Of a stretch of 38,343 nt of DNA, positions 2,995-32,945 are shown in pieces. Numbering within the stretch: the first letter of the stretch is position 1; each line of letters begins with the position of its first letter. The notes under the pieces are model-generated. The model did not search any database and had not been told where the DNA came from. It saw only the letters and a program-made list of their open reading frames with translations. This stretch comes from Terriglobia bacterium (GTDB taxonomy: Bacteria > Acidobacteriota > Terriglobia > Acidiferrales > UBA7541): contig JAIQGD010000018.1 in NCBI GenBank assembly GCA_020072765.1, positions 1 to 38,343 on the forward strand. The letters are read 5' to 3'. The position numbers and the translations under genes were made by a program.

Positions 2995-5474
2995 ATGGCC
3001 AGCCAGGTCGTAAGTCCCATGGTTCCCAGTCCTCGGGTGTTTGTGCGCAGCTTGAATGTGCTGCTGAAATTCGCGCGTCTGTACGGGCTGGAGCACGCTC
3101 GCTCCGCCAGGCAATTCGAGTCCGCGTGGCAGGAACTGGAGGCGTCGGTGCAGGCCGCCGGGCAGACCGGAGTGGTGCTGGGCACCTCGGGTTCCCAGCT
3201 TCTGCTGGATGGCGAACCCATCGAATCGACGCCCGCCGAGCGCAGTTTTGCCGACCTTCTGAATGCCGCCGGGGTGGCCAGCATCTGCTTCTATCCCGAG
3301 ATGAAGCGGGATGGCTTTGCCCATTTGGTGAAGACGTTCACCGAGACCGGGTTGCGGGGCAGCGCGTTGACGGAGCGCCTGGAAAAGCATTTCGGCAAGG
3401 ACGGAGTTCCGGGAGTCCGCGTCAACGAGATTCATTTCGTTGCCCAGGGCGGGGAGGTTGGCGAAACGCCTTTGGCCGCGCAGTTGACGGTTCGGGGAAC
3501 GGAGGCCCGGGCGAGGCGCGGCCGCTGGGCGAAGCGGATCTGCAAAGCTTGCTGCGGTTGGTAGGGCAATGGGGCGAGTCTACCCAGGGGAAACAGGCGC
3601 ACGAATTCGACGGGGCGGCTTGGCAGGAGCAGTTCGCGGCCCTGCCCGGCAACGCGCAAGCGACGCTGCGGCAGGCCCTGGCGGCGGTGGCGGCGCAAAC
3701 GCCGTCGGCGAAAGTGGATGAGGCGATGCTGCTGCGGCTGGCCGAGAATCTGGCCATCGGGTTCGCGCTGGAGCGGTTTGAGCGCGGCGAAGTGAAGGTC
3801 AACGCCGTGCAGCAGATGCTGGAGCGCATGAACCAGGAACTGGGCGCGCTGCGCAAGATTCTCCGGGCGCGGGAAGAAAAGATGGCGAGCTCCGGAATCG
3901 CGGTGGAGTCCCATGAGGACGTGCTGGACCGCCAGTTCTGGGCCGCCGTGTCGGAATCAGGCAAGCGAGCGGTGCTGAGCTCGCCGGAAGCGTGGTGCAT
4001 CCCGCCGCGCAACGTCCAGCACTACGCCGAAGAATTGCTGGGGCGGGGCGAATCGCAAGCGGCCGGGACGATCCTGCGGAAGTATGCGGCGTGCGTGCGG
4101 CACAAGGATGCCGAGGCGCGCAAGAAAGCCTCGATCGGAGTGGCGCAACTGGCCGGACTTTTCAGCAAGGCCGGGAGCCAGGCGTTGCCGGAGGGGCTGG
4201 CGCTGGCCGGCCGGCAAATGACCGCGGAGCCGGAAGCGGAGGTGCAGACGCTGCTGGGCGCCGCGTTTGTGCGGTTGAGCCAGGAGTCCTGCGTGCACCG
4301 GTGCTACCCGGCGATGCGGCAGGCGCTGGATTCGCTGGCCGATCTGGAGGCGGTGCGCCCGAGCTGGGCGCAGGGCCTGCGCGCGCGCATCGGATTGGAA
4401 AATCGTTTGCCGGAGTGCATCGAGGAAGCGCTGGCCGGCGAGGCGATGCCGGAGGGACTGGCGGGCGTGCTGGTACGTCTGCCACAAGCGGCCGGGGAAC
4501 ATCTGGCGGCGCGGCTGGCGCGCGCGGTGCGGCGCAGCGAGCGCGAGAGGATCGTGGAGCTGGCGAAAGAGGCAGGCGGCAGTTGCGTCCGGCATTTGGA
4601 AGAGGTGCTGAAGTCGGATTCCTCGGCCAAGTCCGCGGGCGTGATGGGGTTGCTGAGCCGGCTGGATCCGGCGGTCCTGGAAGAACTGCTGCCGCTGCGG
4701 CTGCGCCAGGGCCGGAGGGGCTATCAGGACGCCGTGGTGCGCCAGTTGGCGATTGCCGGCGCGCCGGAGCGGGGCCGGTTGCTGGCCCATGCCATCGAAC
4801 AGTTCGACCCGTTGGTCCTGCCGCTGGCGCTGGATGAGATCGGGATGTGCGGAGACGCGGAAACCGCGCCGAAACTGCTGCAGCTGGCGGAGGGAGAAAT
4901 CCTGCCGGAGAGTTCCGAGTACGTGCGGGTGAAAGCGATTGATGCGCTGGGCCGGATGCGGGCGCCGGGCGTGGCGAGCCATCTGCGGAAGTTCGTCGAG
5001 GCGCGCAAGGCGCTCGGCTGGGTGTATCCCGAGGAGATGCGCACGGCGGCGGCCCAGGCGCTGATGAAGCTTGACCCAGACTGGATGAGCGCGTTCCTGC
5101 CGCAATCGGGCCTGAATTCCGAGGCGCTGGCGCTGGCGCCGCTGGACGCGATGCCCGAGCGGGATGTGGTGCGGCACCGGCGGTATCGGCGCGTGCGCCT
5201 GCCGCGGAATGTGCCGGCGGTGGTGGCCTCGGCGCGGGGAAAATCTGCGTCCACGATCAGCGTGCTCAGCCTCGACGGAGGGTTGCTGAGCGGGGACGTC
5301 CAACTGGCCGTGGGAACCGAGGCCACGCTGAAGATCAATGCGGGGCTTCGCTCGATCAGCGTGCAGGCGGTGGTGCGCTCGGTGCGTTCGCACCAGGCCA
5401 GCTTTGAAACGGTGGGCATGGGGCTGGACGATCGCGCGAAGCTGCGCCGTTTGCTGGTCGCGCTGGGCGGGTAA
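2995..5474 (+). CDS. HEAT-repeat and PilZ-domain protein, apparent frameshift near 3500-3525
   Basis: The gene reads across two frames. The first, from ATG 2995 with a Shine-Dalgarno AAGGAAGG at 2982-2989, gives a sensible sequence (FVRSLNVLLKFARLYGLEHA) up to about 3500, then degrades into RARRGRWAKRICKACCGW and stops at 3564. The second frame becomes sensible at about 3510 (GEARPLGEADLQSLLRLVG) and runs to 5474. Joining them needs one missing base (a -1 shift) in the GC-rich stretch around GGCCCGGGC. The central part has repeated amphipathic helices of HEAT type (about 4050-5100). The last ~100 residues form a PilZ-like domain (RYRRVRLPRNVPAVV, then VLSLDGGLLSG), a fold that often binds cyclic-di-GMP. 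No signal peptide is seen. The break may be an assembly error, a real mutation or, less likely, programmed frameshifting. Confidence 0.8.
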
Positions 5475-22584: not shown

Positions 22585-23043
22585 ATGGCGGCCGCAACGC
22601 AACGTATGGAAGTCACGCTGGCCACGGCGCTGGAAAGCGTGGACCTTGCCGAAAGCATTGTCACGCGGGTGGCCAAGACCGCGGGCTTTGACGAAGAGGA
22701 AGTGCACAAGCTGGGCATCGCGGTGCGCGAAGGCGTCGTCAACGCCTACAACTACGGCAACCAGCAGGACCCGCGCAAGAAGATCCACCTGGAGATCGAG
22801 TTCGAGCCGGAACGCATGATCGTGCACGTGGCCGACGAGGGCACGGGCTTCGAGCTGGGTGAAGTGCCCGACCCGCTGGCCGAGGAAAATCTGATGCGGA
22901 CGTCGGGCCGGGGGCTGTTCCTGATGCGCGCGTTCCTGGATGAACTCACGGTGCGGCGCGGGGCGGCCGGCGGCGCGGAATTGGTGATGTCGAAGAAGCT
23001 CCCGCGCAACGCCGCGGGCCACGGCCGGGCGCGGGACGAGTAG
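22585..23043 (+). CDS. Anti-sigma factor / RsbW-type serine kinase
   Basis: This 152-residue protein has a GHKL-type (HATPase_c_2) fold. The N-box has E and N in REGVVNAYNYG, the G1 box reads VADEGTGFEL, and the G2 box TSGRGLFLMRAFLDEL. In RsbW/SpoIIAB-like systems this kinase binds a sigma factor and phosphorylates its antagonist. ATG 22585 has only a weak ribosome site (GGAGCTCC region); downstream residues start directly with the fold (EVTLATALESVDLAESIV). The partner STAS gene follows after 26 bases. No sigma factor, RsbU-type phosphatase or RsbX is nearby, so the controlled regulator must be elsewhere. Kinase activity on the neighbour is inferred from family and order. Confidence 0.85.
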   Translation: MAAATQRMEVTLATALESVDLAESIVTRVAKTAGFDEEEVHKLGIAVREGVVNAYNYGNQQDPRKKIHLEIEFEPERMIVHVADEGTGFELGEVPDPLAEENLMRTSGRGLFLMRAFLDELTVRRGAAGGAELVMSKKLPRNAAGHGRARDE

Positions 23044-23069: not shown

Positions 23070-23414
23070 ATGCTGCTACAGGGGACATGCCGCGAAGTGG
23101 GTGAGGTGGCCGTCGTCGACTTCAGCGGCAAGATCACCCTCGGTGAAGGCAGCGCCACGCTGCGGCACACCATCCGCGAACTGATCCAAGCAGGACGTCG
23201 CAAGATCCTTCTGAATCTCGAAGACGTCGACTACATCGACAGCGCCGGCCTGGGCGAGCTGGCGGGCGGCTGCATGGCGGCGCGCAAGGCCGGGGGTGAA
23301 CTCAAGCTGGTCAATCTCACCCGCAGAGTCAGTGACCTGCTGCAGATCGCCCGGCTGTTCAGCGTGTTTGACGTGCAGGCCGACGAGGCCGCCGCCCTCC
23401 GCAGTTTCCGCTGA
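23070..23414 (+). CDS. STAS-domain anti-sigma factor antagonist (RsbV/SpoIIAA-like)
   Basis: This single-domain STAS protein has 114 residues. The phosphorylatable Ser is S58 in the signature YIDSAGLGELAG. The preceding GRRKILLNLEDVDY and the following GGELKLVNLTRRVSDLLQIARLFSVFDV match the family throughout. In related systems the unphosphorylated form binds the kinase and frees the sigma factor. It lies 26 bases after the RsbW-like gene, so both form a partner-switching pair. ATG 23070 is preceded by AGGATTCG. The 325-bp gap that follows carries the candidate parS site and the cold-shock leader. Confidence 0.87.
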   Translation: MLLQGTCREVGEVAVVDFSGKITLGEGSATLRHTIRELIQAGRRKILLNLEDVDYIDSAGLGELAGGCMAARKAGGELKLVNLTRRVSDLLQIARLFSVFDVQADEAAALRSFR

Positions 23415-23739
23415 AGTTTCCCAGACATGCTGCCCGGCGCCGGGCTTCCGGGGCCAAAATCCCTAACGAAAACAGGGACTTACGGGCAGAGCCGCGCCTT
23501 TTGCCCATCGCGCGGTGGTCCGGCGTGTTCCACGTGAAACCGCCCGCGGACTGGCGCCCGGTGTTTACCGTCTCCGGCTCTGGACACCGAATATGGGTTT
23601 GTGATAACAATTCCGCCGCTGAGGCGGTGTTGTAATCCTGTGGGGGAGTGCGCGCCCTGCGTCCAACGGGGTGCGGTGTGCTACCGACCGGCGTTACAAC
23701 CACCTGAATCGGGAAATCACTTGCAGAGGAGTAGCACCG
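23415..23739. other. 325-bp intergenic region: parS candidate and cold-shock leader
   Basis: This gap lies between the STAS gene and the cold-shock gene. It contains a hairpin GCCCG-GCGC-CGGGC near 23430-23450, the parS-like 16-mer (23526-23541), a CCGCC/GGCGG hairpin around 23613-23627, and complementary segments 23626-23635 (GGTGTTGTAA) and 23694-23704 (TTACAACCACC), which pair with one bulge. A long structured 5' leader is usual for cold-shock mRNAs. The promoter was not identified with confidence. Confidence 0.6.
23526..23541. promoter_or_regulatory. Candidate parS (ParB/Spo0J binding site)
   Basis: TGTTCCACGTGAAACC matches the widely conserved bacterial parS consensus TGTTNCACGTGAAACA at all but the last base. 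The CACGTG core and the flanking GTT/AAC arms are intact. It lies in non-coding DNA between the STAS and cold-shock genes. parS sites cluster near the replication origin in most bacteria, so this hints at an origin-proximal location. No parA or parB gene is in the window and only one copy was seen. Confidence 0.72.
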
Positions 23740-23946
23740 TTGGCTCGAGAACAGGGTGTGGTGAAGTGGTTCAATGCGTCGAAGGGATATGGGTTCATTC
23801 AACGCCAGTCGGGAGAAGACGTTTTCGTTCACTTCTCGGCCATCCAGATGGATGGCTACAAGTCGCTGAACGAAGGCCAGCTGGTGGAATTTGAGGTCCG
23901 CCAGGGACCCAAAGGCTATCAGGCGGAAGGCGTCACCAAGGTCTAG
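23740..23946 (+). CDS. Cold-shock domain protein (CspA family)
   Basis: This 68-residue single cold-shock domain binds single-stranded RNA and DNA and acts as an RNA chaperone. TTG 23740 is the start: it follows AGAGGAG by 7 bases and gives [20 protein letters not shown], the standard N-terminus. The open frame to 23671 is part of the leader. RNP1 is KGYGFI and RNP2 is VFVHF. Two Gln-rich steps and ending EGVTKV are normal. A terminator lies 14 bases after the stop, so it is likely monocistronic with a long structured leader. It is not possible to say from sequence whether it is cold-inducible. Confidence 0.95.
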
Positions 23947-24118: not shown

Positions 24119-24832
24119 TTGACGCAGCATATTTCCCGCAAGGAACTGAAAACGGACGAGGTGCGCCAGACGCTGGCGCACGGCGCCGAGGCCGTCCTGT
24201 CGCATCAGCAACTCTTCCTGTACCTCGGGGTCGTGGCGGTGGTCGTCGCCCTGGGCGTTTTCGGGTGGGGGGCGTATATCCAGCGGCAGACGGTGAAGGC
24301 TTCGGCGGCCTTCGACAGCGCGATGAAGGTTTTCCAGACTCCCGTGGGCGCCCCGACGGCGCCGGGCGAGGTCACCTACACCGATCCCCAGAAGAAATTC
24401 GCCGAAGCGGAGAAGAAATTCGTGGAAGTCGCCGCGCAATATCCGCGCACGCGCCCCGGAGAGCTGGCGCGCTATTACGCCGCGCTGAGCGTCGAGGAAC
24501 TGGACAAGAACGACGACGCCAAGAAGTGGCTCCAGGGCCTGGTGGGCAGCAAGGACGAGGAAGTGGCGGCCCTGGCGCAATTCAAGCTCGCGCAGGTTGA
24601 GGAGCGCCTGGGCCACGGGGACGAGGCCGTCCGGCTCTACCAGCAGCTGATGGCCAAGCCCACCGCGCTGGTGCCCAAACCGATCGTGATGCTGGCGCTG
24701 GCGCAGCACTTCAGCGAGAAGAATCCCGCCGAGGCGGCCAAGCTGTACGGGCAGGTGAAGTCGGAATATCCCGATACGCCCAGCGCCGAACAGGCCGAAC
24801 AGGCACTCGCGCTGCTGCCCGGCAAGTCGTGA
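24119..24832 (+). CDS. Membrane-anchored TPR protein (YfgM-like)
   Basis: The 237-residue product starts at TTG 24119, six bases after GAGGTG. Residues 1-30 are a charged cytoplasmic tail (SRKELKTDEVRQTLAHG) and 31-54 form one membrane helix (LFLYLGVVAVVVALGVFGWGAYI). The rest is periplasmic with TPR-type helices: FAEAEKKFVEVAAQYPRTRPGELARYYAALS, EEVAALAQFKLAQVEERLG and the C-terminal AAKLYGQVKSEYPDTPSAEQAEQAL. This matches the tetratricopeptide proteins of the YfgM/BamD-like group that help secreted proteins mature. It is followed by the dGTPase-like gene after 9 bases, probably in one transcript. The specific partner is unknown. Confidence 0.85.
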   Translation: MTQHISRKELKTDEVRQTLAHGAEAVLSHQQLFLYLGVVAVVVALGVFGWGAYIQRQTVKASAAFDSAMKVFQTPVGAPTAPGEVTYTDPQKKFAEAEKKFVEVAAQYPRTRPGELARYYAALSVEELDKNDDAKKWLQGLVGSKDEEVAALAQFKLAQVEERLGHGDEAVRLYQQLMAKPTALVPKPIVMLALAQHFSEKNPAEAAKLYGQVKSEYPDTPSAEQAEQALALLPGKS

Positions 24833-31660: not shown

Positions 31661-32899
31661 TTGAGCCGCCGAGTCGTGGTGACGGGTGTTGGGCTGGTCT
31701 GCGGATGTGGCATCGGGACCGAGGAGGTCTGGCGCAATCTGCTGGCTGGCAAGAGCGGCATCGGGCCGGTCACGCATTTTGACACGACGGGCTTCGATTG
31801 CCGCATCGCGGGCGAAGTCCGCGGGTTCGATCCGCTGAACTGGGTCGACAAAAAAGAACTGAAGAAGATGGGCCGGTTCATTCAGGTCGCGCTGGCCGCG
31901 TCGGATTTCGCCATGCGCATGGCCGGCCTGACTATCACCCCGGAAGTCGCGAATGCCGCGGGCGTCTATATCGGGTCGGGCATCGGCGGCTTCGACGTGA
32001 TCGAGCGGGAGCACTCGAAGTATCTGCAGGGCGGTCCCGGCAAGATTTCTCCCTTTTTCATTCCCGCAGCCATCGTGAACCTGGCGTCGGGCCACGTTTC
32101 GATCCGCTACGGCGCCAAGGGTCCCAACTCCGCCACGGCAACCGCGTGCTCGGCTTCAGCGCACGCGGTGGGGGATGCGTTCAAGATCATCCAGCGCGGC
32201 GCCGCCGAGGTGATGATCGCGGGAGGCGCGGAAGCGGCGGTCACGCCCATGGGCATTGGCGGTTTTGCCGCCATGCGCGCGCTTTCCACGCGCAATGACG
32301 AACCCGAGCGCGCCAGCCGCCCGTTCGACGGGCAGCGCGACGGTTTTGTGGTCGGCGAGGGCGCCGGCGTGCTGATTCTGGAGTCGCTGGAATTTGCCGA
32401 GCGGCGCGGCGCCAACATCGTGGCCGAAATCGTCGGCTATGGAATGTCCGGCGACGCCCACCACATCACCCAGCCCGCCGAGGGCGGCGATGGCGGATAC
32501 CGCGTGACGCTGGCGGCCATCCAGGATGCGAAGATTACTCCCCAGGAAGTCGGCTACGTCAACGCGCACGGAACTTCGACCCCCATCGGCGACGCCATCG
32601 AAACCAGCGCGCTCAAGCGCGTCTTCGGCGACCACGCCAAGAAGGTGCCGGTCAGCTCGACGAAATCCATGACCGGCCATTTGTTGGGCGGCGCGGGTGG
32701 ACTCGAGGCCGGCATCAGCATCCTGGCGCTACGCGACCAGATTCTGCCGCCAACCATCAACTACGAGAACCCCGATCCGGCCTGCGACCTGGACTACATC
32801 CCCAACCAGGCGCGCAAGGCGGACGTGCGGTACGCGGTCTCGAATTCATTCGGCTTCGGCGGCACCAACGCGTCATTGCTGTTCAAGCGCTGGGGATGA
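31661..32899 (+). CDS. fabF: 3-oxoacyl-ACP synthase II (FabF)
   Basis: FabF condenses malonyl-ACP with acyl-ACP. TTG 31661 is the start (MSRRVVVTGVGLVCGCGIGT), preceded by AGGAGAG. In 412 residues the catalytic triad is C163 (TACSASAHAV), H303 (NAHGTSTPIGD) and H340 (MTGHLLGGAGG); the conserved Lys is in SSTKSMTG. The C-terminal NSFGFGGTNASLLFKRW is characteristic. It lies 41 bases after acpP and 46 before etfB, in the same direction. Confidence 0.97.
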   Translation: MSRRVVVTGVGLVCGCGIGTEEVWRNLLAGKSGIGPVTHFDTTGFDCRIAGEVRGFDPLNWVDKKELKKMGRFIQVALAASDFAMRMAGLTITPEVANAAGVYIGSGIGGFDVIEREHSKYLQGGPGKISPFFIPAAIVNLASGHVSIRYGAKGPNSATATACSASAHAVGDAFKIIQRGAAEVMIAGGAEAAVTPMGIGGFAAMRALSTRNDEPERASRPFDGQRDGFVVGEGAGVLILESLEFAERRGANIVAEIVGYGMSGDAHHITQPAEGGDGGYRVTLAAIQDAKITPQEVGYVNAHGTSTPIGDAIETSALKRVFGDHAKKVPVSSTKSMTGHLLGGAGGLEAGISILALRDQILPPTINYENPDPACDLDYIPNQARKADVRYAVSNSFGFGGTNASLLFKRWG

Positions 32900-32945
32900 G
32901 CATAGCGCGGCCAGCAGTCCCGGGGCCGCTTGCAGGGAGGGCATT

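Follow-up and report, generated by a model that had tools for sequence, protein, structure and literature searches.

A solitary parS-like sequence upstream of a cold-shock gene in a Terriglobia bacterium

Does a near-perfect parS sequence in intergenic DNA mark the neighbourhood of a replication origin, or can it be something more ordinary? The question was raised by a 16-mer in contig C39 of a Terriglobia bacterium, which is the window of this study (the whole analysed stretch of 38,343 nucleotides). The genome has a size of 3.78 Mb, is distributed over 152 contigs and is 96.6% complete. A literature search for parS in Acidobacteria returned no paper on the subject by title.

Sequence and position of the site

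The features around the site are listed in Table 1. As the original prediction had claimed, the 16-mer TGTTCCACGTGAAACC departed from the ParB/Spo0J consensus TGTTNCACGTGAAACA only in its last base, a C. Its score was 15/16 against TGTTNCACGTGAAACA, with N counted as matched, and 14/14 against the core GTTYCACGTGRAAC. The mirror pairs of the 16-mer were complementary in 6/8 cases, and its centre was the palindrome CACGTG, upstream of a gene. No second place in the window matched TGTTNCACGTGAAACA at up to three mismatches, the same place being listed on both strands. Further, the site was located in a gap of 325 bases, between the stop of the STAS reading frame at 23414 and the TTG start of the cold-shock gene at 23740. 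The predicted setting, non-coding DNA with a partner-switching pair on one side and a cold-shock gene on the other, was in agreement with the Pfam matches (HATPase_c_2, STAS and CSD).

Table 1. Features of the window around the parS-like site
Feature	Position	Strand	Evidence or remark
Anti-sigma/partner-switching kinase-like gene (HATPase_c_2)	22585..23043	+	Pfam PF13581, E 5e-25
STAS-domain gene (anti-sigma antagonist-like)	23070..23414	+	Pfam PF01740, E 1.9e-14
parS-like 16-mer TGTTCCACGTGAAACC	23526..23541	. (given as read on +)	14-base core 23527-23540; one of the three core matches of the genome
Half-sites of the core		+ and -	GTTCCAC on +, GTTTCAC on -
Conserved block upstream of the cold-shock gene	23579..23620	+	TGGACA 23581-23586, ~17 bases, AT-rich stretch
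Cold-shock (CSD) gene, TTG start	23740..23946	+	Pfam PF00313, E 1.9e-29
TPR-protein gene, locus finder for other genomes	24119..24832	+	Pfam PF09976

Four more half-parS heptamers (GTTCCAC or GTTTCAC) were found inside the window besides those of the core. According to the accessible part of one study, the ParB of Pseudomonas aeruginosa binds these heptamers genome-wide (PMC10419367). The window site holds one of each, and unlike single half-parS sites, which are common, its two halves form the full core. In the text available from PMC7383237, the Noc-binding site has A for G at core position 1 and C for A at core position 6; this signature was absent, as the window core possessed G and A at the two positions in both arms. 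With a complete 14-base core and both half-sites, the label parS-like is fair.

The parABS system of the same genome

The original prediction saw no parAB, which was correct for the window; it does not extend to the genome, in which parAB was located on contig C76. The parB profile matched C76:1011-1538 (E 7.5e-57, over the cut-off); the ParB reading frame is L073 765-1823 on the - strand. The genome does possess the parB whose presence the prediction had made a test of itself. The order on C76 was parB, parA, two clean parS and gidB, which is the standard arrangement; parA and gidB were named by reading their translations, without a family search. The clean parS were at C76:2490 and C76:2526, between parA and gidB. 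The core GTTYCACGTGRAAC was found three times in the genome, twice on C76 and once in the window, the latter being the only one away from parAB. At up to two mismatches, the genome gave 8 forward and 9 reverse matches, and the backwards control gave 3 in each direction. The predicted clustering of clean sites was thus obtained at gidB-parA-parB, on another contig, with the window site outside the cluster. The dnaA gene was on a further contig, C31, so that the window site was off both the parAB contig and the dnaA contig of its own genome. The best reading is that the gidB-parS-parS-parA-parB locus on C76 serves as the working centromere, and that the window site is no part thereof.

Like the chromosomal parS of ParABS systems (Spo0J/ParB class), the window site possessed the full core, was intergenic, and had a cognate ParB with R173 and G201 in the same genome. 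Unlike them, it was alone, off the gidB-parA-parB contig, ended in C, and was unconserved at its locus.

Possible recognition by ParB

The ParB of this genome matched the solved ParB/Spo0J, Noc and KorB chains (13 distinct sequences, E <=0.001), with ParB first. In the alignment with Caulobacter ParB, R173, N178 and G201 were kept, and positions 179 and 184 were S and K. The three kept residues make up the RxxG set that parS-specific proteins have. The K at Caulobacter position 184 was a separate observation, and the protein might have a wider site range; according to the accessible text of PMC7383237, an RTKG variant showed promiscuity in its sites.

The base at the end of the site was compared with real parS. 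In the 14 genus genomes for which the parS stretch was examined, own included, all 31 core sites of those stretches were between gidB and parA, and nine of the 31 had an end other than T/A. For instance, the parS beside parB in G108 was TGTTTCACGTGGAACC, which ends in C, and both parS in G140 had C at both ends. In the parts of PMC5098823 available, the parS of P. aeruginosa is written TGTTCCACGTGGAACM, with which the final C of the window site agrees, as that consensus permits it; the window site differs from it by A for G at position 12. The same text describes two-mismatch sites as unbound in vivo, and the four strongly bound parS as grouped near oriC, whereas the window site was solitary. 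Since the terminal C is outside the 14-base core, and such ends are tolerated in real parS, binding of ParB at the window site is plausible on the evidence of the bases.

Conservation of the site among relatives

The same locus was located in other genomes via the TPR gene, which was matched in 36/41 genomes and in 293/299 genomes, and 30 loci were scanned, own included. The 16-mer was absent at up to two mismatches from all 29 relatives' loci, the eight with the cold-shock gene included; the G001 locus had one match at three mismatches, at a different position. The cold-shock gene preceded the TPR gene in eight relatives; in the examined stretch of the remaining 12 of 20 family loci it was not seen. 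In the 330 bases upstream of the gene, the site was missing in all eight (8/8), with best matches of 3-8 mismatches. Accordingly, the 16-mer was not conserved at this locus (0/8 and 0/29), an outcome that the original prediction had named as speaking against it. Moreover, the core GTTYCACGTGRAAC was absent from the whole 223-kb contig C18 of G001, which carries the locus, and from a total of ~130 kb of surrounding sequence in eight more genomes of the genus. The nearest relatives found had a TPR protein ~70-73% identical, and a young functional site could therefore also look unconserved.

Chance level of the match

In the whole window, two matches at up to three mismatches (one place, both strands) were obtained compared with 0.36 expected, and 8/100 shuffles reached two. 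For the 89 family genomes, the core GTTYCACGTGRAAC gave 298 matches and the backwards control six, one of the six being in the genome under study. The control rate was ~0.067 core matches per genome, which is about one in 15 genomes or 0.0007 per 38-kb window; the reversed control is without the CG step of CACGTG, so this rate is approximate and may misjudge. The estimate from base composition was 0.033 per genome. On the assumption that a tenth of the DNA is non-coding, a chance core match outside genes is expected ~0.007 times per genome, and this lower likelihood counts against the stray reading. The predicted small chance in 38 kb was right for any one window, but such a match is expected about once in 15 genomes and the window was chosen because the site was present. 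A single stray can be accounted for by a chance rate of ~0.07 per genome.

Among 20 genus genomes, the 41 core matches were composed of 31 gidB-parA sites (14 genomes), five single extras and five in G006 and G018; four genomes were without any. The single extras beyond the gidB-parA stretch belonged to our genome, G001, G007, G009 and G015, and were placed for our genome and G015; that of G001 was neither elsewhere on C12, its parS contig, nor on C18. At the control rate, 1.35 strays were expected in the 20 genomes, with P for at least five of 0.012. The five extras speak against pure chance for all of them and hint that some solitary sites are non-random.

The explanation that we favour, and hold to be reasonably probable, is that a parS-core sequence arose recently, and alone, in intergenic DNA that changes fast, and that the window site is an unselected stray that may still bind ParB. 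The extra copy of the ParB word beside the cold-shock gene of this soil bacterium is thus probably an ordinary stray. On contact with ParB, a dimer could nucleate on the two half-sites, be loaded in the form of a CTP clamp and slide along the flanking DNA, as at any parS; we would expect no selected role for such loading here. If bound, the site would be useful for studying how additional sites of ParB loading arise in these bacteria and how they are tolerated.

Comparison with distal parS of other genomes

A working satellite parS, that is, a lineage-specific extra loading site for ParB/SMC away from the main cluster, is an unlikely alternative, for which the intergenic position and the intact core can be put forward. 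The perfect distal parS of some complete genomes of the class seem to be of this type. Perfect TGTTCCACGTGGAACA sites far from the best parB were found in one-contig genomes of the class: at ~0.33, 0.65 and 3.72 Mb in G119 (parB at 4.01 Mb), at 2.18 Mb in G204 (parB at 2.53 Mb), at 3.16 Mb in G271 (parB at 3.34 Mb), and at several places in G221 (together loci L163-L167 and L169-L173). The distal site of G204 and G271 was common to apparently the same gap between two conserved genes. Against this, the distal class sites were 16/16 palindromes and one was common to two species, whereas the window site was neither, and it was absent in 8/8 relatives and from the surrounding region. In addition, a second parS cluster in Caulobacter was tolerated best within ~500 kb around ori and disfavoured in mid-arm, as stated in the accessible part of PMC5815017.

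A more doubtful version is a newborn satellite centromere: a point mutation in a drifting promoter gap would have made the full core far from the main cluster, where ParB, perhaps with SMC, would load and touch the expression of the cold-shock and STAS genes. If true, the site would catch in the act the gain of distal parS, which are perfect palindromes elsewhere in the class.

One perfect distal parS of G221 (L171, ~4001-4016) lay close to the 5' end of a gene related to the window gene 32697-33716, with 61% identity over 258 aa. A neighbourhood shared with the window was rejected, as the window had no site at 32697-33716.

Solitary core matches in genomes of the sister genus g5 were also considered as proof of satellite parS, and were rejected in this role. 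Of 23 fetched loci (L136-L153 and L156-L160, from g5 genomes among the matches listed and picked for having the site), 16 had the core in frame in two conserved ORFs. It encoded F-H-V-E-L at 11 loci (L136, L137, L138, L141, L145, L146, L149, L150, L153, L157 and L160; ORF ~900 aa) and F-H-V-K-H at five (L143, L144, L151, L156 and L159; ORF ~1100 aa). The g5 solitary matches are at least partly explained by protein sequence, and the in-frame cores may be either codon chance or parS within coding sequence. Unlike them, the window site was not in a conserved gene.

Neighbouring genes and possible regulation

The cold-shock protein had an identity of 91-98.5% in the eight relatives with the gene in the same place, and the STAS gene adjoined it in three of these (G001, G010 and G018). 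The alignment of nine upstream regions showed a conserved block, which starts with TGGACA at a distance of 40 bases downstream from the window site. Its conservation suggests a promoter, and a generic sigma-70 scan found no site.

It is very unlikely that the window site is a ParB-operated cold-shock switch, in which ParB would nucleate 40 bases upstream of the conserved block, spread and repress. The position relative to the putative promoter is suitable, and in P. aeruginosa the genes next to parS3 and parS4 are repressed by ParB bound there, according to the available text of a review (PMC7022226); the site, by contrast, was not conserved along with the cold-shock gene or the block.

Distance to the replication origin

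The original prediction placed the window, if the site was real, near the replication origin. A genuine origin-proximal parS, with C39 adjoining the parAB/dnaA region in its own genome, is extremely unlikely. Besides the sequence match, it can appeal to the separation of C39, C76 and C31 into short contigs, which leaves room for adjacency. Against it are the relatives with longer contigs. In G001, parS and dnaA were together on C12 (262,846 bases) and the locus was on C18 (223,384 bases), which put the locus at a least possible distance of ~86 kb from parS and of 206 kb from dnaA. The corresponding values for G023 were 216 and 239 kb, and G076 had a least possible distance to dnaA of 177 kb. 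Furthermore, the TPR gene and dnaA were on different contigs in 25/25 fragmented genomes with both located, a count that is weak alone because many contigs were short, and the TPR gene and parB were on different contigs in 12/12 genomes, many contigs again being short.

For the one-contig class genomes (11 of 21 listed), the best TPR match lay 216-1990 kb away from dnaA, and its distance to the best parB was 563-2008 kb; these matches had 30-34% identity, so orthology is less certain, and 7/11 genome lengths were rounded. In 10 of the 11, the best parB was 9-143 kb from dnaA, and in G221 it was 413 kb away. GC skew gave no usable origin signal in the window or in C12 and C18 of G001. The claim of origin proximity was thus unsupported, with the locus at least 177-239 kb from dnaA in G001, G023 and G076 and 216-1990 kb from it in the 11 listed one-contig genomes. 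The window site as an origin marker or a centromere element is likewise not supported, and a near-perfect parS on one contig does not put that contig at the origin.

A separate observation concerned G251 and G283, also one-contig genomes, in which ~1.1 and 1.5 Mb separated the best parB from dnaA. This set them apart from the rest of the one-contig genomes of the class that were compared, and means that dnaA lies away from the origin in these two or else that the par locus has moved.

Other parS-like sequences

Least probable of all is an operator of another reader of CACGTG palindromes, unrelated to ParB; the palindromic centre upstream of a gene would suit it, but no conservation was found upstream of the cold-shock gene in relatives.

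A second parS-like sequence, TGTTCCACGGGAAACA (one mismatch, CGGG centre), recurred at C44:23702 of our genome and in eight relatives. It was kept exactly in alike surroundings in our genome, G001, G007, G009, G010 and G018 (L081 for our genome, and L075, L078, L079, L082 and L083). As a second conserved parS it was rejected in these six genomes, as it was located in an aminotransferase-like frame, which was read from the letters without a family search. TGTTCCACGGGAAACA also occurred in another stretch common to G003 and G015 (L084 and L080), and in a third place in G023.
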